DNA of 64,000 nt from Dacryopinax spathularia. Lineage: Eukaryota; Basidiomycota; Dacrymycetes; Dacrymycetales; Dacrymycetaceae. The notes below the pieces were generated by a model. That model was not told the DNA's origin. It was given only the letters and a program-made list of their open reading frames with translations, and did not search any database. The number at the start of each line of letters is the position of its first letter. Position 1 is the stretch's first letter. Of the stretch, positions 48,546-64,000 are shown in pieces. The stretch covers positions 1,116,001 through 1,180,000 of the forward strand of contig JBBPFI010000006.1 of NCBI GenBank assembly GCA_037974965.1. The letters run 5' to 3'. The translations under genes and the position numbers were made by a program.

Positions 48546-51500
48546 TTAGAGAACCACCGGTCTAACAATCAGGTCGGCTTCTGCCTCCGATCCCCATAGT
48601 GTGAATTCCTCTTCCTCATCTGATTCGAAAGTCCTTCTAATTCGCCCAAGAATATCTTCTAGTATGAGCGGCAGTGCTACTTCCAGTTGTGTGCTCAAGG
48701 CGGCCGCGTCCTCCTCCTCGGTAGCGGTCCATCGCGGTGTGTTACGGACTGCAAGAACGCAGTGTGCATACCAGGGGTTGTCTTTCTCGAGCGCTGCAAC
48801 CATAATATCTTCTGGCGACTGCCCTGCTTCTGAAAATTTTACAGTTTCTGTTTCTTCACGCCCGTTAGAGCGGCTCAGCTGCCCTCTCTCCGGCGAGAAG
48901 CGTAATTCACCCAAAGCTTCCGGGTTCTTCGAGTCGGTTGTATGCACAGTGGACACAGGCTCGAGTATACGGGCGTGGTCGGTCCGCTTATTCTCCTCTG
49001 CCTGCCACACACCCATCTCAAGACCGTTCAACACTCCCTCCTCCAGATGGGCGCCCCTTGTTTCCGATTTCAAGTATTTCAAAATTGTTCGCGTCAAGGC
49101 TCCCTTTGTCCACGCCCGTAAGGACTCTATGTTCAGTTGCCAACTTGGGCTGCTCAGGCACGACAAAAGGTCCACCTCCACCCCTGACACGCTGGACTCG
49201 TCGTCTTGCTCCAGCGTTGTATTCGGGGGTGCCAAGAGGACAGCCCTGCGTTTAGACCAGCTATCGATTCGCCGTTCAAATAGCTCTCGGATTCCAACAA
49301 GGCCGGACGGATCGTGGAAGCGGTCACCCAGGGTTTCTCTGAAGCGTGCTCTCTTCTCCTTCCACAAAACGGAGCAAGGTATGACGCCGGATGTCTCCAT
49401 CGTTATGAGCAGATCTAGATTGACATGTTGAACGGCGAGGTGGAGCAGACGCACCAAAGGGCAATGGTGCCAGCCATAAATTCCACTATACCTTGAGGAC
49501 AAGGAGAAAATCATTTCCTCGAAGATCATTTCTTGTAAGAGCTCGGACAGACAAATCCTAGTCGCCCATGCTTCTAGTAACTCCATCTGATAGTCTTCAA
49601 CTTCCCATCTGTATTCACATAACCCGTGATCTCTATGATCCAGCAACAGCGCGGAGCAGATGGCGAACAGAGGTTTACTCTCGAAGGGGGGAGTTGAAAG
49701 ATAGTACAGAAGAACGGACCTATCAGTGGTTTGTGGGATGACGTTGAACGAGAGACTGTCATTTCGGAGACCGTCTTTCTCTCTGCTCAACAAGATTCGC
49801 ATGAGCAATGACTGGGAGGAACGTGTATCGAGCATCAGTGCCACTTCCAGAAGAGCTTCCAAGGAAATCGCAGGTCGGAAGACAAGCACCTCGAGACACT
49901 CGTTGAGCAATTCCATTTCAAACAGCTGACTCCGTAAGAGTCGAGTGTCAAGTGGCTCATGCGAAGCTACCAGTTGAAGGTCCACGTATAGCTTTTCCCG
50001 GGATGATCGAAGCAGTGATTTCAAGATTTCGAGCGGAAAAGAGATCTCGTAAGCATCGCTTCTCAAGATGTTCACCGCCATTTGCATAGCGACACGGTTT
50101 AGCTCCGGCCAATAAGGCTCCTCGATAAGAGGGACGAAGAAGTCATGAACCGCGGAGAGACTGTTTCCGCTAGCTTGGACCAACGAACCATAGTGTGTAA
50201 CCCAATACACGCGGTAGGCCCAGAGGAATTCCAAAGGTACACCCACAGAGGTTGCCAAGAAGGCACAGACCGCCGTCTCCTGGCGAGGTAGTCTGGTCCA
50301 TGATGTAATCTCACCTTCCATGGGAATACCAGCAGCCGTAGAAAGCACACAGGCACTGAGCGATACTTTCCCGGAGGCTGTCCACAAACCCCAAGGAAGC
50401 AAGCCTCCGCGATAAGTTCTTGCCTCTCTGGGCAGGGCCAGACTGACTCCTAGTCGTTTTGCTATCAACCTCGTCACAGCGTGATACCAGAAAAGCTCTT
50501 CTTCCGGTACATTTCCAGGAGGATAGGACCATGTCCAATCGAGAGCGTCGCGATCTAGCAAGGGAGAACCTGACCAGCCAAGGGACGAGCAGGCTATGAA
50601 CGCGCTTTCCAGAAGAGGCTTCAACTCCGACCACGGCAGCTTTCCCAGGTTCTGGATTTGGCGGGGTCGCAGTACCTCACCCATGTTAGGTAGGTTCGCA
50701 TATACCGTTTGCGTTGCCATTTTCAATCGTTCATGCTCCTTGTCCAGTACGACTTCCGCTCGCCATGAGAACCTCGCTGACAGCAGAACCTTCACGACAC
50801 GCTGCTCTTGACCATTTCTGGAGAGCCAATTTAGAGCACCAACCGCAAGATCGAGCTCATTGGGCTTCACCGGCAGGGATGTGTATTGGAAAGGCCATAA
50901 TTTTCTGCGGATCGACTTGACACAGGGCGCTATGGAGAGCCAAGCTGAGCAGAAGGTGACCAGGATTTTTCCTTCAACGACCAGCGCTGCCAGCCATGAC
51001 GTCACTGGACTTTTGTAAGGACATTCGTGCCATATTAGGGGAGCAGCCGCGAGAGCGAGATATGCACCAGCGCCGAAGACGCCGAGCATGCTCACTGCAA
51101 CCCATAGCAGGGAGCTCTGCAGCCACAGAAATGCAATGAGACCAGCGTAAAATAAAGCCACAGCGATGTGTATAAAAACGGGCAAGGAGTTCGCGATGCT
51201 CGCGACTTTCCACTTGTCCAAGCCGTCATATCGGAACTGCCGTTCCATTGCCTTGTCTTTGGTGGTGGTAGGCAGATTTGCGCCGTAAACCCGAATCCAT
51301 TGCTTGATCAACATTGCCAGCACAGACGTTGACAAACTAATCAGCAAGCTCAGAATCCACAGTGCATTAGTCGCTGTGACAGTTGAGCTAGGGGCGGTGT
51401 CGCCAGGCAGATAAGGCGCGACTGGTGGACCGTTTTGAGATGCCTGCGCCGCGAGCTGCGCTGAGATAACGAGCAGAGCTTGCATGCTGACTTGAGCAGG

Positions 51501-51873
51501 ATCGGATTGAAGCAGAGGTAAAGCAACAACGATAAAGGCGGTGACAACAGCAGAGAAGAGGGCAGCCTGCGAATTCAGTGTGAATAACTTCCTGTCGAAT
51601 GAGCCGGCGATACATACGAAGATGAGGAGATTATCCATTCCTTCATTGTACGTCTCCAACATCTCCTTATCAGCCTTCTCCGCGTATTCATTGTATATAG
51701 GCCACACATGCGCGTCGTGACCAATGCCCGTACCCTTAGGCAAGTCATTGATGAAATTGCGTACAACCGCAGGTTCGCGAAGAGGCTCGTTTGGGCTCCA
51801 GTGGTCCTGCTCTGCTTCCTATAAGGAATCGCGTCAGAAGACCTTTCGACAGCTATTACTCTCTGCTCACCAT
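48546..51873 (-). CDS. DUF6535 family multi-pass membrane protein
   Basis: The main exon 48546-51818 codes for 1,090 residues, and the start codon stands alone in a first exon (51871-51873, ATG|GTGAGC). The N-terminal DUF6535 region begins EAEQDHWSPNEPLREPAV and includes HVWPIYNEYAEKADKEMLET and YNEGMDNLLIFVC. Four hydrophobic helices follow: LFSAVVTAFIVVALPLL, LWILSLLISLSTSVLAMLIK, VFIHIAVALFYAGLIAFLWL and LLWVAVSMLGVFGAGAYLAL. Between helices 2 and 3 is the typical QWIRVYGANLPTTTKDKAME. The remaining 800 residues are soluble, helical and repetitive in Leu and Glu. The family is expanded in Agaricomycetes and has no known function. Confidence 0.85.
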
Positions 51874-52339
51874 GATGAGTCCTTGAAGCCGTGGGAGTCC
51901 GCGACGGCGGCGACGCGATGAGGGCGTTAGGCGGCAGTGGGCAGTGACAAAGGTGGACCGCGCGGGGTGCGCGCCAGCGGCAAGACGGGTCTTGCAACAA
52001 CCCGATAACGTTAGAAGTCTGGCAGTACAAGCGATCAATTCACGCGGCACCCATGAATCAAAATAGCTCCTTGTCTCTGTGCTGGCATAGTCTGTTGCCT
52101 TGTTGACCGGAGTTGACCGATATCTTCACGAACACCACAAAGCCAGGATTTGTCTCCAAAGTTGCGGCGATAATCCCTGGCCAACGAAGTTGTGCCAGGT
52201 CTAACGGGTCGAAATGGGGACATCGGTCAGGGTCCAGATGCCCGACTCGCTTTCCAGAACCTTCCACAACCGGTCACGTGCACTCCTCGCTCTGTATTGT
52301 GGAGGTTTCTCAAGCCCGAAGACGGGAAGGACGGAAGTA
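51874..52339. other. Intergenic between DUF6535 gene and Helitron
   Basis: About 470 bases of mixed composition. The change to G/T-rich plus strand happens near 52340-52440, which is my only guide to the left edge of the Helitron. Confidence 0.35.
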
Positions 52340-52361
52340 AAGCTGTGCGCTTGGGGTGACG

Positions 52362-52829
52362 ATGATGGATAGGTGGGGTTTGGGTTTCTCTGTATCTGTA
52401 TCTTTGCTGGAGGCTCACTCGTCTGCTTTGATGCGTCCTGACTTAATAGAAGAGGAGGTAGATGTGGACGCGAATATGTTTGCGTCGCAGGAGTCGGGAG
52501 GTTTTTTTATGGAATGCGTGATAGGGGAGGATAGTGCACGAGGACATGCAGCTCGGGAAGAGGTTGCTGCGCGTCAAGGATGGACTAGGGAAGAGCGGGA
52601 AGAAGTTGCGCGTTGCATCCAAGCCGGGAGGCCGTGTGAGGACGTTGAGGGGGTGGTGAACAATGTGGAGAGGCGCGCTATGGAAAGATTGCGGTCAGTG
52701 TATGCTTTGAATGGGTGGGTGGAGGTGTGTTTACAAGAATTAGGACTGTGCGGTCGCTGGGCTCGTCTGTGGGGTCCGTGCGTGGGGGTGGGTCCTCGGC
52801 GGGTGCGGCGGGCAATGGTGATGGGGTAG
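52362..52829 (+). CDS. Putative small open frame in Helitron 5' region
   Basis: An open frame of 155 codons from ATG at 52362, in the same reading phase as RepHel 250 bases downstream. It is charged and helical, including QGWTREEREEVARCIQAGRP and NNVERRAMERLRSVYALNGW. It may be an independent small protein or an upstream exon of RepHel using a GTGCGT donor near 52780. I do not recognise it, and no partner acceptor is certain. Confidence 0.3.
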   Translation: MMDRWGLGFSVSVSLLEAHSSALMRPDLIEEEVDVDANMFASQESGGFFMECVIGEDSARGHAAREEVAARQGWTREEREEVARCIQAGRPCEDVEGVVNNVERRAMERLRSVYALNGWVEVCLQELGLCGRWARLWGPCVGVGPRRVRRAMVMG

Positions 52830-52855
52830 ATCATGGTGGGTGGATCGTTCTCACG

Positions 52856-52864
52856 GGTTTATAG
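52856..52864 (+). promoter_or_regulatory. Possible TATA element upstream of RepHel
   Basis: The word GTTTATAG lies about 220 bases before the RepHel start at 53082. It is offered as a weak promoter candidate only. Confidence 0.2.
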
Positions 52865-53081
52865 ACATCGCTGACGGTCACGTCGCTGTTTGCATATTTT
52901 CCATTTTCGTTGGCGGGGAACTTGGTCGCGCATGTCGGCTGGGCCTCTTGTGCTCGTTGGCGGTGTTGGGGTCGATGTCGTCGTTGACTTGATGTGACGT
53001 GATGATCTGGTGTTGCCATGTGCACGCGATGTTGACGGTGATGGTGTTGTGTGGTGATGCGTGTGTGTTGTGGATCGAATC

Positions 53082-56000
53082 ATGGTGTGGTTCTTTTGGG
53101 GGAGTGCAGACGAGTCTAGGAGCATACGGATAGTGCGGTTGAGGGAGGAAGATGCGTGCATATATGATGGGGAAAGATTTGAGGATGTGATGTCTGTGTC
53201 TGATCTGGTTAATCTTTATCGTTTTGAGGGAGTGTGCGGGTCTGAGGACGATGCGATTCGGCGCGGTTGGTATCGAAGGGATGGTTATGTTTTAGTGCGA
53301 TTGGGGGTTATATCAACACTCGTGAGCGGGTTCTCGTATCTGACAAGGCATGATCTTAGTGTCTTGTGCGCTTTACATGGCGTAAGGTGCCGCCATCGGG
53401 GTTTGCGGAAGGAGGATGTCCGTAAGTTGTTGTGTGAGCACGTTTGTACCCCTCGGTGTACGCCGGGTGTTCTGTATGCGTTCCACGCCGTTCGGGTGCA
53501 GCGGATGGCGATCTTTCCCGCAGGTTCGCCATTTACGTCTGGAGTGAAGCGTGTGCTTGGTAATTCCGATGAGGAAGAAAGAGGTGGCAGGCGAAAGAAG
53601 CGGCCTAGGGAGGAAGGGTTAGGTGCACAGCGAGAAGTGGTGGGCTTTCCGTCCATACCAGGGAGTACGTTGGTTCGGGACATCATTAGGGAGTACCAGA
53701 GTAAGACACGGCCAAGTTTCCTGGGGGAGGTGCCATGCGGTTGTTGTGGGGAGAAGGTCCGTAGAGGGGAAGTGTGCGTTGTGTCTGTCGGCGACGTTCC
53801 CTTTGAATTACTTCGACCTGACGAGGACTTTCCTTTGCATCTTCGTCCCAACACGTACGCGGTGGAGGCTTATGATGGGGCAATTTTACATGCGAAGGCT
53901 CTCTCGTCTCCGTGGAAGAAGGAGGGGGTAGTGAACTTCTGTGGGGGTTGTAGGAGGGAACTTCTGTTGCGCAGGCGAATGCCCCGGTTGGCGTTGTGCA
54001 ACAGATTCTATTATGCTTATGAGCATGTACCGTCAGACGTTTCCGATGCCTTTCGGAAGTCGACGTTTGTGGACTTGCGATTGGTGGCGAGGTACAGTGC
54101 TAGCAACATTTGTTTTGCATACAAGGACGATCCTACCAAAGAAGGTCTTTTCGGTAGGGCGCTGTCGGGTGCGCAGAGGTTTTGTCGGGGAAATACGGTG
54201 ATTTTACCTCGAGACCATTCGCGGATGGAGGAAGTGCTGCCTCCTAGTGTACAAACAATGAAAACAGCGTTTACCACTGTATTCGCAGGCGCAGAGGGAT
54301 TGGATGATGCGAGCTTGCGGAAGCTGGCTCCCTTGAAGGCATCTGCGGCACGAGTCAGGTTGTTGATCTCCTTTTTGATTCGGGAAAATGACGCGTATGC
54401 GGTGGGTGTGGATGGGGATGGACCAGTCGGGTTTAGTGAAGCGAATATGCGCGAGCTCTTTGGGTCGACTGATGGAACGGATGAGGCTGGAGGTACAGAC
54501 GCACTTCCCGGTTGCATCGAGATTGGGAGGTTGTCTGGCTCAGAGTTGAACAGAGATCCGGATATTACTGGTCGGAATGAGCTTGGTGGTGTTGCGACGG
54601 GTGAGGAAGAGTTTTACATGGAGGCTTGCGGCTTTGTTAAGGGGGAGGTGTCGGGTCAGAAGTACCAGGCCATGAAGGCGGAGTGTCTCCAGCACTGTTT
54701 AGCGGGTCGACCTTTCCTTTTGAGTAGGAGTGGCGGACGTCCGGTGTGTGATCGAATGAATCATCTCCTTCTGGGAGGCTTGTTTCCGCATTTAGATCCT
54801 TTCAATTTAGGGGGGTTTGAACACCCGGCAAGAAGGCGGTTTGTGGACATGGCAACACAATTGGGCCACTTGTTGAACATGTATGATAGTCCGTTTGAGA
54901 AGGATGCTCAATTTGTTTTTGTGTATCATAACATTTTGCAGAAGAGGAAAACCACTCGTGATGCGTTTTTCCGGGTTCGCCAAGTAGAGTGTGATCGGTT
55001 GATTCGCGATATCATGAGTGTTCCATCTGGCGTTTTTGGTGACTTGGCTGGAAAGATAGGTAAGGACGGTAGCTACCGGGGAACGACGGATGAGGAGCGG
55101 AGCGCCTTGAGGGTCTTGCAGCGGCTGAATGTCGTACAGCGTGAAGTGCCAGGCTCGAATGGGTATAAGCAAGCTCGACGGAATGAGATTCGGGCGCTCA
55201 TCCAAAAATTGGGCACGCCGGCATTGTTTTTGACATTGACACCAACAGACATTGACAGTCCATTGGTGCGCTTGTTGGCCGGGGAGGATGGGGATGGGGC
55301 GGATTGGTGGTTTGTCGGTGAAACGTATGGTTCTAAGATGCATAGAGCTGCTCGCGTGGCTCGCAACCCCGCTGCGGCAGCTAGGTCTTTTCACGGTACC
55401 ATGGAAAGGTTCAGGGACATTGTTTTGCGTTGTGGGCGTGGGGAAGGGTTGTTTGGCGAATGCAGCGGAATGTATGGAATGGTGGAGGCACAGGGTCGTG
55501 GTACGCTCCATTGCCATATGCTCATTTGGTTGAAGGGTCATTCGAACCCGAAGGAGTTTAGAGAGCGGGTGCTGCGGGACGACCAGTGGAAAACGCGTAT
55601 GCTTGCCTGGTTAGAGTGGCATATCCGCTGCGAGCTGCCGGAGAATGTGGACGTTGTCCGTGAGCACGGTGCCCCTCTGCCGAAGCCAAAACACAGTGCG
55701 GTCGAGATCAATCCGTGTACTTTACCTGGACCGGACATCGAGAGCATGGCTGAGGACGAGTTCTCCGTTGCATTTAGGGATCATGTCTCAGCGCTTGTGC
55801 AAGAAGTGAATTGGCACGAGCATAGGCCAACTTGCTTTTCTAGAGTGAAGGCGGGAGAAGTGCAGGGCAATTCAAATTGCCGTATGGGAATAGATGGTGT
55901 GACACGAGCCGTTTCTGAGGTGGATCCCTGTACTGGGTCTATTGCTTTGAGAAGGCTGCATCCTCGCATCAATGAGTACAATGATGTCATCATGTTTCTG

Positions 56001-59000
56001 CTGAAGTGCAATATGGATATTCAGTTTTTGGGCTCAGGGGAGGAAGCGAAGGCTGCGGTGTATTATATTACGGATTACATAACAAAGCCTAGTTTGCCCA
56101 CTCACGTGGGCCTATCGGTCTTGAGTCTTGCGCTTCAGAAACAAGATTTGGCTGCGAACGACTTGTCAGGCAAAGAGAGTCGGTTGTTTTTGAATCGACT
56201 GGTGAATAGGATGATGGGTTCGCAAGAGATGTCGCATCAGCAAGTGATGAGTTATTATGTTGGCGGTGGTGACGTATATACAACGCACAGGTTTAGGACG
56301 TTGCATTGGGGTTCGGTCGAGAGGTGTGTGCGTGCAAGCGAGAAGGAGAGGGTTAGGAACGATGATTCGGCTTTCTTGGTCGGGTCCGGCGTGAATACCG
56401 AAGATGCACGTGTAAACAGTGATGCCGACGAAGCGGTGGAAAGGATTGGGGCGCAGAGGCGGTTATCGACGATAGGAGAGCGAATCGAGTCAGGCGAACA
56501 GGTTGGCGATTTGAGTGATCCACATGCGGTTTTATCATTTGGAAACCATGGCATCACTGCTGTGCGGCAAGATGTGGATTACGTGTATAGGCCAAGGGAA
56601 GACGAGTTCGATAAGCTCTGCTTATATGATTTTGTGGCTTGCACGTACAAAGAGCTGATATCTGGTGGGGTGGGCGCAGACGATCCTTCGAGAGGAGGGG
56701 CGGAGGAAGAGGAACGCGGTGTGGAATCGGTGGGTGTCGTGAGGAGGGGTAGGCCAAGATTGCAGAGAGGAGCGTTTGGAGTGGAACATCCGCAGAGAAG
56801 TACTCACCGACTCCGATTAAGTAACAGTCACCTGGTGCCCGTCATACTTGGACCATCGCTGCCGCGAGAAGGAGGTGGAGAGCCGCAGCAGGAGGAGTGG
56901 TGTCGGGCGATGATGATCTTGTTCAAACCTTGGAGGCGTTTGGGGGATTTGTTGAACGAAGGAGAGGCGTGGAGTGCTGCTTTTGAGCGAGCTGTGTTCA
57001 GCGAGGAGCACTTGAGGGTCATGCGGAACATTGCGACGCTTAATGAATGTAAGGATGCCAGGGAGCGCCACGCGCGTTACCGGAAGGCGATGGACGCTGA
57101 GGATGATTTTGAGGGTGTGGTAGAGGAAGATTCGGAAGATTCGGGCTCCGAGCAGATGGAGGATGGGGAAGTTACTGAGGGACGGGACCGGCGTGTGTTG
57201 GCGGTGGGTAACTTAGCTTCTTCGTATGGTCGAATCTTGGAGGATGGGCTTGGGGGCCGAGCGGTGACGGGACCACAGGACTCTTTGGAGTTTAAGGAGA
57301 TGGATGGAAGCGAGCGTCGTTTGGTGCGCGAGTTTGGAAGCGTCATGGTGGAATTGCGGCGACAGCGAAGGCCGGCCGCGCCAGGAGGTGGCGTGATATA
57401 CGTGCCTGTGCGTTCTGGTAACACGGATGTCAGAGGGCCAGAGATTACGGTCGCAAGTGCTCGCCCAGTGTCATCCGTGGGGGAGGGTGGTAGTATATCG
57501 GCTGCCGTGGGTGAGGTAGATGGATGTGATCCTGTGGGGAGGGCGATCCAGTTGTTTTCAATGCAGGAGAATCCCGAGCAGTGCGCCGTGGTCAGGATTG
57601 TCGGTGACCATATGTTGAAGCGGAAGTCAACGCAGCTATTGATGTATGTGTCTGGCGTGGGCGGCACTGGGAAGAGTCATGTTATTCGTTGTTTGGTTGC
57701 GTTGTTTGACATGGTGGGAAGGGCTCGGTGTTTAATGTTGAGTGCGCCAACCGGGGCTGCGGCGATATTGATTAAAGGGTATACGATTCATGCGTTGACT
57801 TTGCTACCCAAGGGGGGAGGACGCGTCAACCTGGAGACTTTGGAGCCCATATGGCGTGAAGTGGAGTATTTGGTCATTGATGAGGTTTCCATGGTCTCGG
57901 CGTTGCTTCTGAGTCAGATCTCGGAGCGGCTGTGCTTAGCCAAAGGGGTCCCGGATGTGCCATTTGGGGGACTACACGTGCTATTCTTTGGAGATTTGGG
58001 TCAGCTGAATCCGGTTCGTCAGCCTTGTCTGTATTCTCAGAAGTTAACGGGGAAGGTTTCTTTCAGTATGGGGCAATCGCTCGGGGGACAGGGTGCCTTG
58101 AGCGGTGCGGTGTTATGGAGACAGTTGAACGCGGTTGTCGAATTGCAGAAGAGTATGCGTCACGATGGTGACTTGCGGTGGGCCAATCTGTTAAGAAGGA
58201 TTCGGCTGGGGCAAGCATGGGCGGGGTTGAAACCTCATTCCAGTGTACAGAGGGGGACTGGGGAGAATTATGTTTTGGGTGACTTCGAAGTGTTGCGGAC
58301 ACGATTGTTGGGACGTTTGGTAATCGATGACCCTTCTGTTATAGCGAGTTTTGAGGACGCGCCCGTTATTACTTGCACGAAGGACCTTCGCGATGAACTG
58401 AATCAAGTTCTATCTCTTAGGCACTGCGAAAGGTTGGGGCAAGAATATATATGCTACTATTCCAACGATCGGCAAGCGAGGGGACAGCCGTTGCCACCAA
58501 AGGTTGCTCGTAGCGTGTGGAAGGCTTCATCGTCTTTAACTAAGGATGCTTTGGGTAGATTACCGCTTTTCTTGGGAATGCGAGTGATGGTGACTGAGAA
58601 CATCGCGATTTCGATGAACGTAGTGAATGGCGCGGAGGGTGAGGTGGTGGGCTTGAGATATTCGCAGCTTGGAAGTGGGGAGCGTTTTGCTGAGGTCGCG
58701 TTCGTCCGTGTTAGCGGTTGTGGTTTAGTGCACCCCGCACTTCCTGCGGATGTTGTACCGGTCATGCCTGTACGTTCGGCCTTTAGATGGAGGTCGCAGG
58801 ATGGACGGGAGTACAGTGTGACCAGGCGACAATTGCCCCTCCTCCCTGCATATTCATATACGGATTACAAAAGTCAGGGGCGGTCGCTGGGTAAAGCAGT
58901 GCTAGATGTGGCCAGTTGCCGCTCGTTGGCGAGTGTGTATGTGATGTTGTCCCGGGTACCGACACTGAGCGGGGTGGCTATCCTACGAGAGTTTACTACT

Positions 59001-59093
59001 CGGTATGTGCATGCGCGACTTGATCCTGCATTGAGGGTTGAGCTAGAAAGGTTGGCAAGCATAAGTCGTAAACCAGTTGTTGGATTAGAATGA
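53082..59093 (+). CDS. Helitron RepHel: rolling-circle Rep endonuclease plus PIF1-like helicase
   Basis: A single open frame of 2,003 residues from the first in-frame ATG. The N-terminal third has a DUF6570-like Cys-rich part (PCGCCGEKVRRGEVCVV, NFCGGCRRELLLRRRMPRLA). The Rep part follows. Helitron_like_N begins near GHLLNMYDSPFEKDAQFVFV, motif 1 is PALFLTLTPTDIDSPLV (about residue 714), the HUH motif is GRGTLHCHMLIWL (His 810 and 812), and the two-tyrosine motif is AVYYITDYITKP (Tyr 995 and 999). The helicase has Walker A GVGGTGKSH (about 1525-1533), Walker B LVIDEVSMVS (Asp 1600), FFGDLGQLNPV and the late YTDYKSQGRSLGKA and SVYVMLSRV of PIF1/RecD enzymes. All key residues are present, so it looks functional. 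It nicks and transfers one strand during rolling-circle transposition. Confidence 0.92.
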   Translation: MVWFFWGSADESRSIRIVRLREEDACIYDGERFEDVMSVSDLVNLYRFEGVCGSEDDAIRRGWYRRDGYVLVRLGVISTLVSGFSYLTRHDLSVLCALHGVRCRHRGLRKEDVRKLLCEHVCTPRCTPGVLYAFHAVRVQRMAIFPAGSPFTSGVKRVLGNSDEEERGGRRKKRPREEGLGAQREVVGFPSIPGSTLVRDIIREYQSKTRPSFLGEVPCGCCGEKVRRGEVCVVSVGDVPFELLRPDEDFPLHLRPNTYAVEAYDGAILHAKALSSPWKKEGVVNFCGGCRRELLLRRRMPRLALCNRFYYAYEHVPSDVSDAFRKSTFVDLRLVARYSASNICFAYKDDPTKEGLFGRALSGAQRFCRGNTVILPRDHSRMEEVLPPSVQTMKTAFTTVFAGAEGLDDASLRKLAPLKASAARVRLLISFLIRENDAYAVGVDGDGPVGFSEANMRELFGSTDGTDEAGGTDALPGCIEIGRLSGSELNRDPDITGRNELGGVATGEEEFYMEACGFVKGEVSGQKYQAMKAECLQHCLAGRPFLLSRSGGRPVCDRMNHLLLGGLFPHLDPFNLGGFEHPARRRFVDMATQLGHLLNMYDSPFEKDAQFVFVYHNILQKRKTTRDAFFRVRQVECDRLIRDIMSVPSGVFGDLAGKIGKDGSYRGTTDEERSALRVLQRLNVVQREVPGSNGYKQARRNEIRALIQKLGTPALFLTLTPTDIDSPLVRLLAGEDGDGADWWFVGETYGSKMHRAARVARNPAAAARSFHGTMERFRDIVLRCGRGEGLFGECSGMYGMVEAQGRGTLHCHMLIWLKGHSNPKEFRERVLRDDQWKTRMLAWLEWHIRCELPENVDVVREHGAPLPKPKHSAVEINPCTLPGPDIESMAEDEFSVAFRDHVSALVQEVNWHEHRPTCFSRVKAGEVQGNSNCRMGIDGVTRAVSEVDPCTGSIALRRLHPRINEYNDVIMFLLKCNMDIQFLGSGEEAKAAVYYITDYITKPSLPTHVGLSVLSLALQKQDLAANDLSGKESRLFLNRLVNRMMGSQEMSHQQVMSYYVGGGDVYTTHRFRTLHWGSVERCVRASEKERVRNDDSAFLVGSGVNTEDARVNSDADEAVERIGAQRRLSTIGERIESGEQVGDLSDPHAVLSFGNHGITAVRQDVDYVYRPREDEFDKLCLYDFVACTYKELISGGVGADDPSRGGAEEEERGVESVGVVRRGRPRLQRGAFGVEHPQRSTHRLRLSNSHLVPVILGPSLPREGGGEPQQEEWCRAMMILFKPWRRLGDLLNEGEAWSAAFERAVFSEEHLRVMRNIATLNECKDARERHARYRKAMDAEDDFEGVVEEDSEDSGSEQMEDGEVTEGRDRRVLAVGNLASSYGRILEDGLGGRAVTGPQDSLEFKEMDGSERRLVREFGSVMVELRRQRRPAAPGGGVIYVPVRSGNTDVRGPEITVASARPVSSVGEGGSISAAVGEVDGCDPVGRAIQLFSMQENPEQCAVVRIVGDHMLKRKSTQLLMYVSGVGGTGKSHVIRCLVALFDMVGRARCLMLSAPTGAAAILIKGYTIHALTLLPKGGGRVNLETLEPIWREVEYLVIDEVSMVSALLLSQISERLCLAKGVPDVPFGGLHVLFFGDLGQLNPVRQPCLYSQKLTGKVSFSMGQSLGGQGALSGAVLWRQLNAVVELQKSMRHDGDLRWANLLRRIRLGQAWAGLKPHSSVQRGTGENYVLGDFEVLRTRLLGRLVIDDPSVIASFEDAPVITCTKDLRDELNQVLSLRHCERLGQEYICYYSNDRQARGQPLPPKVARSVWKASSSLTKDALGRLPLFLGMRVMVTENIAISMNVVNGAEGEVVGLRYSQLGSGERFAEVAFVRVSGCGLVHPALPADVVPVMPVRSAFRWRSQDGREYSVTRRQLPLLPAYSYTDYKSQGRSLGKAVLDVASCRSLASVYVMLSRVPTLSGVAILREFTTRYVHARLDPALRVELERLASISRKPVVGLE

Positions 59094-59454
59094 GTGATAT
59101 TGAGACAGACTTGTGGGGTAGGTAAGAAAACAGTGGGACTAGAAGTTGTATGCGGGAAACTTTACTGATCGATTGTTGTAGTACAGTTAGGGGATGATAA
59201 GGTCCTTTCATCGATGTAATGCGTTCAGCAGAGGTGCATACAGAGTGGGGAAGCGATCTTGATGACTGTACTAGTCCCCAGTGATTCGTACTGGCGGGTG
59301 TTGGTCAGCAGGAACCATGCTTATAGGATTGGGGTGATTGCCGAAAATGAATTGGTGTTCTTGCTAGGGTGCGGTTCCCTGTGATGTCAGCCACGGACAA
59401 GGGTGTGGTAGTCTATGCGTGCACTAGGATTGCAGACTCGGAGAAGCTTGTGGT
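59094..59454. other. Convergent spacer between RepHel and Rad9-like gene
   Basis: About 360 bases of trailer sequence between two stops. No gene or clear hairpin was noticed. Confidence 0.5.
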
Positions 59455-60881
59455 TCATATGTCGAGACTTTTATCGTCTTCATCCGCGTCTAGAATGGCC
59501 TCATAGACGATGGGTGTGAATGACGGTGAGTTGGTAGCAGCCATGTTTGCGGTAGGTTGACGATTTCCGTTGTCGGAAGAATGGGAGGCCGCGGGCAGAG
59601 GGTCGGAAGTATGGTGGGCAGGCGTGTTGTGCCCCCAGTCTTCGATCGGATCGGTCATACCGACATCGGCTGCAGGAACGGGGTCGTCTGCTGGGCGACG
59701 AGGGGGTGGGGGAGAGATTGGTTCGCTGGTCGCTAGTATCCCGGTGAAATTCCAAGGGTGGGGAAGCGGTCTGTCGTTTGCGATGTGCGATGGCGTTATG
59801 GTGAGCCACAGGTTGTTAAAGGGGCCGTAGAAGCGCAGCGTAATATGCTGCTGGAGCGCCGACGCGCAGCGGATGGTAGCCTAGAAGTTGCATTGGCCAG
59901 ATGTTGTCACTTTGGATGTGATTTAACGTACGGCGAATTCTTGGACATGGAATGAGATGGATGTTTCGGGATAGTCAGTGTTGTAGGACAGCAGATCGTC
60001 CGATTCGATGTTGAGAACCGTTGAAATGTCGCCGCCTGGAAATGGGAGGTGAATATTGGAGGTGTCGACGGAGTGAGTATAACGTACTGGAGAACGCGTG
60101 GAGGATGAGCTCCGTATCGTATGCCCAAAGCTCGACCTGCCCGTCGGCCTTTGTCATAATGTGTTGAAGACGGGCAGCCATGGAGTTGATTTGCGGGCTG
60201 TCGAGGGTCATAATCTGTGCTGGAATGGTCGGGTCTGGGTCGATCACCGAGCGCTGACGTTCCGGTTCGTGTATGCGGATGGACCAGACCTTGCGGACGT
60301 CTGTGTGGGGCGATGGGCGTTGCATGAGCGTATGTTTGGAGCGCATATAAGTAGATAAGTTACCATATTTGCAATGCAACGCGACTTCGAATCGGTACTC
60401 GATACTTGGCTCATCCTCGTCATGCACGACGAGAGGATGATTAGCTTTTAGTGCGATGGAGGCTGGGAACTGAAGAGATAAGTGAACCTCCAATGTGTCC
60501 GATTGTCCGTTGGCGGCGATCTTCAGCGGGCGAAGGAGTACTCCGATTGGGATGGCTCCAAAGCACTCGTCTTCCCCGTCGACGTGGACATGGTCGTAAC
60601 TTTCGAAGAATGAACGATGAAGTGTCAGAGTCCCCAATGCGGATTCGCTCATATTCATGGCAGACAGTATGACCTGGACGCGTGGTTTCACATGTGCGTG
60701 TCCCGTGTGTAGTGGTGGTAGGCGTACCTCGTCTGGTCGCGTAATGAGATTGACCTCGTTACCATACTTTGCCAAGGCTCTCAAGCCGACAACCAGCACT
60801 AAGTGTCGGGCTGAGAAGAGAGGCTTTAGTGGAATATATGCGCGTACCTTTCGCGTTTTCGATGCTCAGAGTGGCTTCCAT
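59455..60881 (-). CDS. Rad9-like DNA-damage checkpoint clamp (9-1-1) subunit, probably Helitron cargo
   Basis: Five exons (60848-60881, 60364-60798, 60088-60300, 59932-60035, 59455-59880) join in phase to 403 residues. The N-terminus MEATLSIENAKVLVVGLRAL and AKYGNEVNLITRPDEVRL matches the first strand-helix unit of Rad9. TLTLHRSFFESY corresponds to the next Rad9 strand. YRFEVALHCKYGDVRKVWSI closely follows the Rad9 linker-strand consensus LHCK.GV.KTH. TSISFHVQEFAATIRCASAL and ITLRFYGPFNNLWLTI correspond to the second clamp domain (F.LKEF.A.L.FAE). The tail from about residue 300 is Pro/Ser/His-rich and acidic, like the phosphorylated Rad9 tail. Rad9 forms the PCNA-like 9-1-1 ring that recruits checkpoint kinases. 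Here it sits on the antisense strand inside the Helitron block. It could instead be the host RAD9 next to the element. Confidence 0.7.
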
Positions 60882-61620
60882 GATCAGGTAGATGACAGAC
60901 AGTTATTGTGAGAAGTATGTGGATGTTGTGAGGTTGTTTGGGAGTGTTATGTGCGCAATGTGTGTGTGTTCGGTATGGTTTGGGAGGTCTGATGTGGAAG
61001 ATGATGGTCTGGAAGAGGGATGGAAAGGGGGCGGGGGAGGAGACGCGAGCGCGGTAATAAAAGGGGTCGCGACGTGTTCCAGATCCGTGGTCTGCGCGGC
61101 AGATCGAAGGCGAGCATCATCGTATTTCGGGGTGGGGGGTCGGGAAAAGAGGGTCAGCGGGCGTAAGTGCGGGGACCGGAATAGCGAGGCTGGGTAGGTA
61201 GGTGATCAAGCCGCGGCGGAGTTCCGGAGTTGTCCCGAGGGTGCCGGTGCCTTTGGAGTACGTGCGCGTCTGTGAGAAACTGCATTAGATGTAACCATGC
61301 GTATTTGTTGACTGGCCTCGCTATTGCCCCTATGGTCGAGAGGAGATGGAGATGTAGTAGGAGAGTTGTTGGGGATGTCTAGGTTTGGATCCAGGAAGGG
61401 ACCGGTCGTTGTGGGTGTTCGTCTTTGTCAGGGTCTGATTGATGCCGTTTCCATTCGAGGAAGCGTTGTCGGGGCTACAAGAGGAAATGTAGTGTTGCCG
61501 GTCGTGCGCTACTTGGAGTTGTGAGGTGTCCGCTCGTTGTGCCTGCATATAAGCTGCGGGTGAGAGAGGAGGTACGCGGTGTTCATCTTCTCTACAGTTG
61601 TTTTAGGGCGCAAATCTGCT
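60882..61620. promoter_or_regulatory. Divergent spacer between Rad9-like and Skp1-like genes
   Basis: About 740 bases probably carrying both promoters. CATATAAG at 61546-61553 lies about 70 bases before the Skp1-like ATG and could serve as a TATA box. TAATAAAAGG at 61054-61063 is a second AT-rich candidate. No other gene is supported. Confidence 0.4.
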
Positions 61621-62395
61621 ATGTATGTCATCCTTGTTACGAAGGAGGGAGATCGTCGCGAGGTACCACGCCTGTGGTTGCGTAACATGGGGATTCTCCA
61701 AAGTTGTGCTGAAAGTGGGTTTCCACTTGCCACGTGTGCGTGAATGTAGGCTGAATGAGCTGACGATGTGCTAGGTGCCGCGGGAGGTTTGCCTGTCATG
61801 CCTATTCCGCACGTGTCGGCGTCGGTTTTGTCGAAGGTTTGCCTACTCTGCCATTCGGGTGTTGTTCAAGTTAACAGGTGCATTTTCCAGTTGCTTACCT
61901 GGTGCGAACATCACCAAGACGAGGAAGTAGATGGAGATTTGAAGGATGGTATGGTCTTTAGCGATTGGGATATGGCTTGGATTGGGGTGAACGTAGATGT
62001 GATGTGGGTGTTTGTGCATCTCGGGAGGACGTTCGGTGTATGCTGATGCTGGAGACAGATTTGAGATTTTGAAGGTGCTCTTTGGGTGCACGCTACCCGT
62101 TTCGTTTCTAATAATGTGTTCAGGCCGCTGACTATTTGGATGCTCGTGGCATTGTGTACGTCGCGTGGATGTTGAGGTGTGGATGTGGTTGTCGGGATTT
62201 TGACGTGGATTGTAGCTTGTTGGCTCTGAAAGGGTTGGCAGATGCGTTGGATGGGCGGCGGCCAGACGAACTCCGGGCAGCATTGCATCTTCCGGCTGAT
62301 TGGACAGAGGACGATGTGAGTGTGATGTTGTTGGCCCCTGATAACAGGTTCGGCACGCTGATGTCGAGCAACGTAGGCGCGTCGTGTCAATGTGA
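61621..62395 (+). CDS. Skp1-like SCF ubiquitin-ligase adaptor, probably Helitron cargo
   Basis: Six exons (61621-61714, 61775-61836, 61891-62013, 62124-62155, 62216-62315, 62348-62395) join in phase to 152 residues, close to the usual Skp1 length of about 160. The start MYVILVTKEGDRREVPRLWL resembles the first Skp1 strand pair. PVMPIPHVSASVLSK matches IPL.NV.S.VL.K, LLTWCEHHQDE matches VIEWC.HH, and SDWDMAWIGVN matches WD.EF..VD. AADYLDARGIVLLALKGLAD and ALDGRRPDELRAALHLPADW with TEDD match AANYLDIK.LL and GKTPEEIR..FNI.NDFTEEE. Skp1 links F-box proteins to cullin-1. The last exon (VRHADVEQRR) corresponds to the usual VRKEN.W end but lacks the Trp. No long open frame exists, so it is easy to miss. 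Confidence 0.72.
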
Positions 62396-62505
62396 ATGTG
62401 AGGGAAAATCATCATCTATCATTCTGTCTATTTAAGCATGTTTAGCACTGGGCTGAGTTTGGCACGGGATGGTAACAGGAGAATGGAAATGCGGGGGGAG
62501 GTAGA

Positions 62506-63607
62506 TTAAATGTCCATGCAATCGTTCTCGTCGAGGAATTGCACGGTGGTCACGTCGTCGTTATCTGGGTTGAGTGAATCTGTTGTCGCTCTGAGTTTCG
62601 CGATTGACTGGAGAGGGTTGTCAGCGTTCCCCCCGCGGATGTTGGCCAATTTCACTGACCGGTGCTTGCAGATTGTCGTATGAGGCGAGTTGTATGACAT
62701 GCTCCAGTCTGAGGTAGAGGTTGAAGGTTTTGTCGTGCCGGTCTACCGGGTCGAAAGATATCGCGACATCTACGAAATCCCCTGCCTGAAAGCTCGCCGC
62801 ATGGGCAGTTGTGACTCTCCCATCGTGTCGACGAGTTCCTAACCTGACGGGAGTGTCCAATGTCCAGCGGCGCTGGATTCGTGAGGCCGCTACGTCAAGG
62901 TGGTGCGTAACATGTTGGTTGGAGTGGTCGGCCACCGTCCCGTCCCTGATCGACCTGCTCTGTATCTGGTAAGGACGTGGGTGTGCGTTGCAAGAGGGAA
63001 GGCATCTTACTTTCGCGAAGGTGCGGCGAGTACATCGGATAGCATCCAGGTCATCGAAGATTTGATTATCGGCGCACACCGTGTTAGTAGTGGACGCGTA
63101 CCAACGCCGGATATGCTGGATCGTGGCCCACATGTCCGCCCATAAAGCCATATGCGAAGACGATGCAGGTTCAATGAAAACGCTGTTCATCGCAGTCATG
63201 CAATGATCCGGATGTCTGAGACTTGATTAGCTGGGCTGTCTTGAGATTCGAACTGCCGGAAGTGCTTTACCCGTCCCAGTTGCCATATTTTCCCAGCTGA
63301 GGATCCTTGAGGAAGCCTTGCAGGCGAAGCACCGCGATTCTCGGATGATTTGCGTTACCAGAATGAATCACAATGTCCTTGGTATGTCGGGTATCGATCA
63401 CTTTTGTTTTCGTCCTCAGGCAGAGCACGTTGCACACACCCTCGTAGTTGGACGGGATGGGCAGCATATTGTCAGGTGTGTCGACCGCTAGGAAGGCTTC
63501 CGGATAGGTCCATTTGTCTCGGATGAAGCAGTTTTGGTCGTCTGCTCGTAGTCAGAGTGGACGAGGCACGTTAGAGTGAGTAGCCCACCTTGGATGAAGA
63601 GGGTCAT
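62506..63607 (-). CDS. Unrecognised 302-residue Helitron-associated protein
   Basis: Five exons (63589-63607, 63271-63541, 63011-63221, 62660-62965, 62506-62607) join in phase to 302 residues. The first half includes FIRDKWTYPEAFLAVDTPDN, MLPIPSNYEGVCNVLCLRTK, HPRIAVLRLQGFLKDPQLGK and MWATIQHIRRWYASTTNTVC. The second half is beta-rich: SRIQRRWTLDTPVRLGTRRH, then SFQAGDFVDVAISFDPVDR and FNLYLRLEHVIQLAS. The C-terminus is acidic (DSLNPDNDDVTTVQFLDEND). I do not recognise a family. The GDFVDV...YLRLEHV part looks like alternating strands that could form an OB-type fold. Plant Helitrons carry RPA-like single-strand-binding proteins, so a DNA-binding helper is one possible guess. ATAAAAGG on the minus strand (63652-63659) lies about 45 bases upstream of the start and fits a TATA box. 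Confidence 0.55.
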
Positions 63608-64000
63608 TGCTCTAGGAGTGTGCGATGTCCATCCAGCAAGCGAGTTAGTGCCTTTTATGTGTCATGTGGTGGTGTGGCTGTTGTGGGTTGCTTTCCACGC
63701 GAAGTGGAGGGGCTACGATGTGGCGGATAGCCGGCGGGAAACGGCATGCGGTGGTTGCTGATGGGAGTGGTGAGGAGTGATGTCGAATAGTTAGTACCTT
63801 AAGGAGGGTAAGAGTTAGCGCTGTGGTGCGGCAACGAGTAGCGGAGGAGCTTGATGGCTTGAGGGGCTTGCCCGGCAAGCGCTGAGCGGGAACGAGACCC
63901 AAGGCTGTTCCGGGGACCCTTATTAGTGGTCCGGGAGCTGAGTAGCGCAGCCTAAGTTTGCCCGTGTGAGAGTTTCTGAAATAACGTCATGATTTCTTTT
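63608..64000. other. Helitron right-end region, no gene
   Basis: It contains the promoter of the 302-residue gene, a perfect 7-base stem (GCTTGCC at 63866-63872 with GGCAAGC at 63874-63880) and the GGACC/GGTCC hairpin followed by CTAA. The last 45 bases may already be host flank. Confidence 0.4.
63652..63659 (-). promoter_or_regulatory. TATA-like box of the 302-residue gene
   Basis: ATAAAAGG on the minus strand, about 45 bases before the proposed ATG at 63607, agrees with a fungal TATA box. Confidence 0.35.

Follow-up and report, generated by a model that had tools for sequence, protein, structure and literature searches.

Helitrons that carry genes in addition to their transposase have been described in fungi, animals and plants, and it is against these that we set a locus occupying the last 11.7 kb of a 64,000-nucleotide stretch of Dacryopinax spathularia DNA (GenBank assembly GCA_037974965.1, contig JBBPFI010000006.1, positions 1,116,001 to 1,180,000 of the forward strand; this whole stretch is called the window below), where a RepHel transposase gene is followed by a Rad9-like gene, a Skp1-like gene and a third gene without a family match. 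HELPO1 and HELPO2 of Pleurotus ostreatus resemble it in the two Pfam domains of their RepHel, in the additional genes inside the element and in a size of up to 13.7 kb, but their RepHel has around 1400 residues instead of about 2000, and Rad9 and Skp1 are not among the cargo reported in the parts of that paper used here (PMC4289320). The TET/JBP-carrying fungal Helitron1 and Helitron2 likewise possess an accessory gene, thought to aid escape from host control; their cargo is a different one, and terms for Rad9 and ubiquitin are absent from the main text of the paper (PMC12730594). Animal Helentrons with VTD or OTU deubiquitinase domains are also rolling-circle elements equipped with ubiquitin-system proteins; according to the excerpts of that work considered here, however, their proteases are fused into the RepHel frame and an apurinic/apyrimidinic endonuclease is present (PMC9741609), whereas at our locus the SKP1-type adaptor is encoded by a gene of its own and the Pfam matches include no endonuclease of this type. 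Finally, plant Helitrons with genes resembling replication protein A (RPA), mentioned in passages of PMC4289320, PMC5148889 and PMC6431247, share with the present locus a helper of the single-stranded DNA response, which is RPA there and a checkpoint-clamp relative here. The open-access literature, searched by title and start of abstract (subscription journals and Repbase Reports lie outside this scope), contained no Helitron with Rad9, 9-1-1, PCNA or Skp1 cargo, and the acquisition of full-length genes by Helitrons is called exceptionally rare in the relevant section of a review (PMC6431247). It is likely that the locus represents the greater part of an autonomous Helitron with a length of 11.7 kb or more and with three intact spliced accessory genes behind its RepHel.

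The RepHel gene is a single intact open frame of 2011 codons from stop to stop, with its first ATG at 53082 (for all coordinates, see Table 1). Its product matches the Pfam families Helitron_like_N (E = 4.7e-31), DUF6570 (9.1e-17) and PIF1 (1.1e-16), and contains the sequences HCHML at residue 818, YYITDYITK near residue 1003, GVGGTGKS at residue 1533 and VIDE at residue 1606, which we take to be the HUH, paired-tyrosine, Walker A and Walker B motifs, respectively. A PDB search at E <= 0.01 yielded 19 sequences; most bear the name PIF1 or Pif1-like helicase, and the Helitron transposase Helraiser is also among them (1.5e-6). Pfam, PDB and motifs hence agree on the combination of an HUH nuclease with a PIF1-type helicase by which a Helitron is recognised, and the original prediction, which had credited RepHel with all its key residues from the letters alone, was borne out. 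The visible 11.7 kb also lies within the size range given for fungal Helitrons (up to 13.7 kb) in the portion of PMC4289320 drawn on above.

Table 1. Features of the probable Helitron locus (positions are those of the window)
Feature	Position	Strand	Basis
Element-like strand composition	52293..64000	+	G+T change point; left edge estimated, right edge not reached within the window
Open frame before RepHel, 162 codons, doubtful gene	52341..52829	+	No Pfam match, weak periodicity
RepHel (Helitron_like_N, DUF6570, PIF1)	53058..59093	+	Pfam, motifs, PDB
Rad9-like gene, 389 residues	60881-60848, 60810-60728, 60673-60364, 60300-60088, 60035-59932, 59880-59455	-	Splicing, Pfam, periodicity
Skp1-like gene, 161 residues	61621-61735, 61775-61836, 61891-62003, 62059-62074, 62124-62155, 62216-62315, 62348-62395	+	Spliced alignment, PDB, Pfam
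Third gene, 302 residues, no family match	63607-63589, 63541-63271, 63221-63011, 62965-62660, 62607-62506	-	Splicing, periodicity

Downstream of RepHel, the Rad9-like, Skp1-like and third genes follow in this order, and all three are intact. The 15 introns of the final gene models are all GT-AG, 32-63 nucleotides long and consistent in phase, and no frame is broken; since the models were picked for precisely these properties, however, the weight for the three genes rests on homology and codon periodicity. Three phase-consistent genes of five or six exons had been predicted, which holds for the Rad9-like gene (six exons) and the third gene (five), the Skp1-like gene having seven.

The Rad9-like protein matches the Pfam Rad9 profile beyond chance (8.1e-14) over positions 5-238 of 253, i.e. 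over nearly all of the profile and thus over the PCNA-like two-domain region of Rad9. A single-sequence search of the PDB returned three matches at E <= 1, every one of them RAD9A and all weak (best 0.027), and the codon periodicity of the gene was equalled by none of 1000 shuffles. By similarity, the protein is a divergent Rad9-like clamp subunit. The Skp1-like protein hit only SKP1-family chains in the PDB (33 of 33 matches at E <= 1), the best of them well beyond chance (8.2e-19), so that both family names in the original prediction stand. Spliced alignment of its gene to human SKP1 scores 131; the reverse complement reaches 27, 60 resampled DNAs no more than 40 and 30 shuffled SKP1s no more than 38. 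The POZ fold and the C-terminal helices are covered by the PDB match at residues 43-148, with the N-terminal 42 residues uncovered; in Pfam, a 24-residue match to Skp1_POZ lies above the cut-off (7.6e-5) and the Skp1 dimerisation domain below it (0.039). Exons 1 and 7, which fall outside the spliced alignment (61798-62315), were placed by eye and are less certain, and the last intron has just 32 nucleotides. Over residues 43-148 the protein scores 71 bits against human SKP1, whereas human SKP1 scores 171-189 bits against the longer yeast and plant SKP1 chains and 123-136 against two shorter ones. To judge by these scores, which place it much further from human SKP1 than the yeast and plant chains, it is a divergent SKP1 relative and not an ordinary host SKP1. 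Such strong divergence in a frame that has been kept open suggests long residence under selection.

Is the third gene a gene at all? Its protein has nothing near the cut-off in Pfam (best E 0.32), and the minus strand is rich in A+C here and hence poor in stops, so that an accidental frame had to be considered. The longest stop-free run was equalled in 12 of 500 resamples; the codon periodicity, on the other hand, was equalled by none of 1000 shuffles, which makes the gene very likely coding. Structure prediction for its exons 2 and 4 gave a mean predicted local distance difference test score of 35.6 and 49.8, respectively. An RPA-like oligonucleotide-binding fold, considered from the appearance of the protein, found no support, and Pfam revealed no RPA match in any of the three cargo proteins.

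What ties these genes to RepHel is the composition of the strand. In the host part of the window, plus-strand G+T per kb averages 0.494 (standard deviation 0.031, range 0.398-0.608, 206 overlapping segments). At position 52293 (52261-52374 within 3 log-likelihood units; gain 141.8) it rises to 0.607 and stays there until the window ends, one-kb segments of the element ranging from 0.555 to 0.679. The best additional break within 52400-64000 lies at 53310 with a gain of 11.1, and there is none near the end of RepHel. Neither the whole interval from 52300 to 64000 (0.607) nor the 4.9-kb cargo stretch from 59094 to 64000 (0.603) is matched by any host stretch of equal length, the maximum being 0.509 among 4055 overlapping stretches for the former and 0.532 among 4735 for the latter. 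The base composition of the cargo (A.204, C.193, G.338, T.265) is nearly equal to that of RepHel (A.212, C.185, G.346, T.257), as opposed to that of the host (A.226, C.281, G.274, T.219). The excess of G+T sits on the plus strand whichever strand is coding, and is present in the spacers and in the introns of genes on both strands; codon use and transcription are therefore not its main cause. Deamination of C as the sole cause was ruled out, because G increases as well (from 0.274 to 0.346) and CpG shows no depletion (1.04-1.06 in RepHel and cargo versus 0.96 in the host); whatever produced the skew must go beyond C-to-T change. According to the part of the review consulted, Helitron transposition involves the plus strand alone (PMC6431247), from which we infer that repeated periods in the single-stranded state would yield a strand-specific mutation pattern. 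The shared composition likely ties the three genes to the RepHel element, and it fits a history as single plus strands. The original prediction that the genes reside inside the Helitron thus gains support from strand composition and is likely. As an observation in its own right, the plus-strand G+T excess over 52293-64000 may be general to rolling-circle elements; nothing on GC skew or strand asymmetry in Helitrons was found in the open-access literature by title and start of abstract.

Several observations weigh against this reading. Taken piece by piece, the cargo is less exceptional. As much G+T as in the Rad9 stretch occurs in 1.6% of host segments; the corresponding share is 3.4% both for the third gene and for the spacer between RepHel and Rad9, 1.7% for the final 393 nucleotides, 0.23% for the Skp1 gene and 0.06% for the Rad9-Skp1 spacer. 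Single one-kb host segments get as high as 0.608. Loss of C alone fails to account for the rise in G. In addition, the plus-strand GC skew at fourfold-degenerate sites drops from +0.43 in RepHel (971 sites) to +0.26 in the Rad9-like gene (196), +0.22 in the Skp1-like gene (77) and -0.06 in the third gene (139), although the introns of the latter do show some skew (+0.20). Because, among six host frames checked, four favour C on their coding strand and one favours G, with the remaining one neutral, part of the skew of the Rad9-like gene is to be expected of any gene on the minus strand. The third gene may be a later, younger arrival, or its composition may be held by codon use. As for the ends of the element, neither terminus was located within the window, no second copy was found there, and the CTAA at 63952-63955 is followed by G instead of T and lacks a convincing hairpin.

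Could the Helitron then simply stop after RepHel and before the Rad9-like gene, so that all three genes would be host neighbours, alike in composition by accident or owing to the position of two of them on the minus strand? Two of the three do lie on that strand, where host codon use gives some plus-strand G excess, the third gene is without fourfold-site skew, and no terminus has been found that would enclose all three. We nevertheless regard this explanation as very improbable, because none of the 4735 host stretches as long as the 4.9-kb cargo reaches its G+T, the Skp1-like gene on the plus strand is skewed along with spacers and introns, its protein is far from the conserved SKP1, and the interval 59094-59454, where such an element would have to stop, contains no canonical end with a hairpin. 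Helitron ends were taken to be TC (or TG) after A on the 5' side and CTRR (or CTTG) before T, with a subterminal hairpin, on the 3' side. On the plus strand between 59094 and 64000, 20 CTRR or CTTG sites precede a T, of which one has a hairpin within the permitted 25 nucleotides (5 bp, 24 nucleotides off); with a stem of at least 6, no site was found on either strand, the mean for shuffled sequence being 0.83. Since the sole hairpin-bearing site lies inside the Rad9-like gene, no credible Helitron end was seen before the cargo. The two termini originally proposed were not supported. Composition changes at 52293, and not demonstrably at the predicted left end of 52340, and the range 52261-52374 contains no ATC, with ATG at 52362 and 52365; as to the predicted right end at 63955, it is the CTAA before G described above, and the folding of the final 121 nucleotides is equalled by 13 of 200 shuffles. 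A 3' end beyond the window is the simplest reading, and the element may extend past 64,000.

That the right edge is not reached within the window, together with the mixed orientation of the genes, would also suit a larger composite element, mobile or virus-derived and of a different type, which would have taken up a Helitron and of which RepHel and the three genes would form part. This, too, we consider improbable, given that the 11.7 kb seen agrees with fungal Helitron size, the distance of 0.8 kb between the left edge and RepHel is as expected, and no other element gene besides RepHel, Rad9 and Skp1 was recognised among the frames scanned. Comparison of 52201-64000 with the rest of the window by blastn gave no match at E <= 1, and similarity between both ends of the stretch did not exceed 9 nucleotides. 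A search of a non-fungal collection of viral contigs produced four pattern matches for RepHel and two for the third gene, none of them confirmed; the RepHel motif pattern had no match in viral and prokaryote genome contigs, likewise non-fungal, where the Rad9-like and Skp1-like proteins were not searched.

The surroundings of RepHel on the left are less clear. The 162-codon frame preceding it has no Pfam match up to E 5, and 13 of 1000 shuffles equal its periodicity; it may represent a first exon or have arisen by chance from the base composition. Immediately to the left of the element lies a large open gene of the DUF6535 family (48546-51818, minus strand; Pfam 5.7e-54), whose first exon may fall in or beyond 51819-52293. 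The family is typical of Agaricomycetes, and its presence, along with the shortness of the introns, gives the window a basidiomycete look.

If the favoured reading of a cargo-bearing Helitron is adopted, what might the genes do for the element? The 9-1-1 clamp is loaded where single-stranded DNA meets double-stranded DNA, and single strands and displaced flaps, the intermediates of such an element, are normally reported by 9-1-1 and RPA; a Rad9 relative would suit it for this reason. In its likeliest use, a Rad9-like protein encoded by the element would join or poison the host clamp, with the effect that rolling-circle intermediates trigger weaker checkpoint signalling or are processed to the advantage of the element; it could serve as a decoy that does not signal or as a helper that recruits repair. 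The Skp1-like protein could bring proteins to SCF ubiquitin ligases, or it would redirect or block those ligases that would otherwise act on the proteins of transposition. Manipulation of the checkpoint or of ubiquitin by the cargo is put forward tentatively. For ubiquitin there is an indirect precedent by analogy, in that Helitrons of animals act on it via VTD deubiquitinases and many also contain OTU domains, as stated in the sections of PMC9741609 considered here. The cargo genes would have travelled with RepHel for long enough to acquire the composition that repeated rounds in the form of single plus strands leave behind, and would be long-standing passengers maintained by selection.

It is conceivable, however, that the genes do reside in the Helitron but are recent read-through captures without function for it, an explanation that concerns their role and overlaps with the favoured reading. 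The prevailing model of capture is indeed read-through past the 3' hairpin (PMC6431247, in the part used here), and the third gene has little fourfold-site skew. Skew in the spacers, the Skp1-like gene and the introns speaks against recency, as does the far-diverged and yet open Skp1-like frame, with its hint of long residence under selection, and the rarity of full-length gene acquisition noted in the same review is a further obstacle; we hold recent capture to be rather unlikely. The full proposal, namely a rolling-circle transposon that encodes a 9-1-1 clamp subunit and an SCF adaptor for itself, retains them through selection and uses them to manage the checkpoint signal from its single-stranded intermediates as well as the ubiquitin-dependent turnover of its proteins, and that bears along its whole length a strand mark from plus-strand transposition usable for mapping elements and cargo without known ends, is possible rather than probable. 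Accessory cargo acting on host processes is a known theme of Helitrons, to which Rad9-like and Skp1-like proteins would be new players. An element-borne Rad9 relative, if true, would mean that a transposon engages the checkpoint clamp directly, and would make the sensing of rolling-circle transposition by the host amenable to testing, while the element-wide strand skew could offer a simple way to delimit Helitrons and to tell which of the neighbouring genes are cargo.

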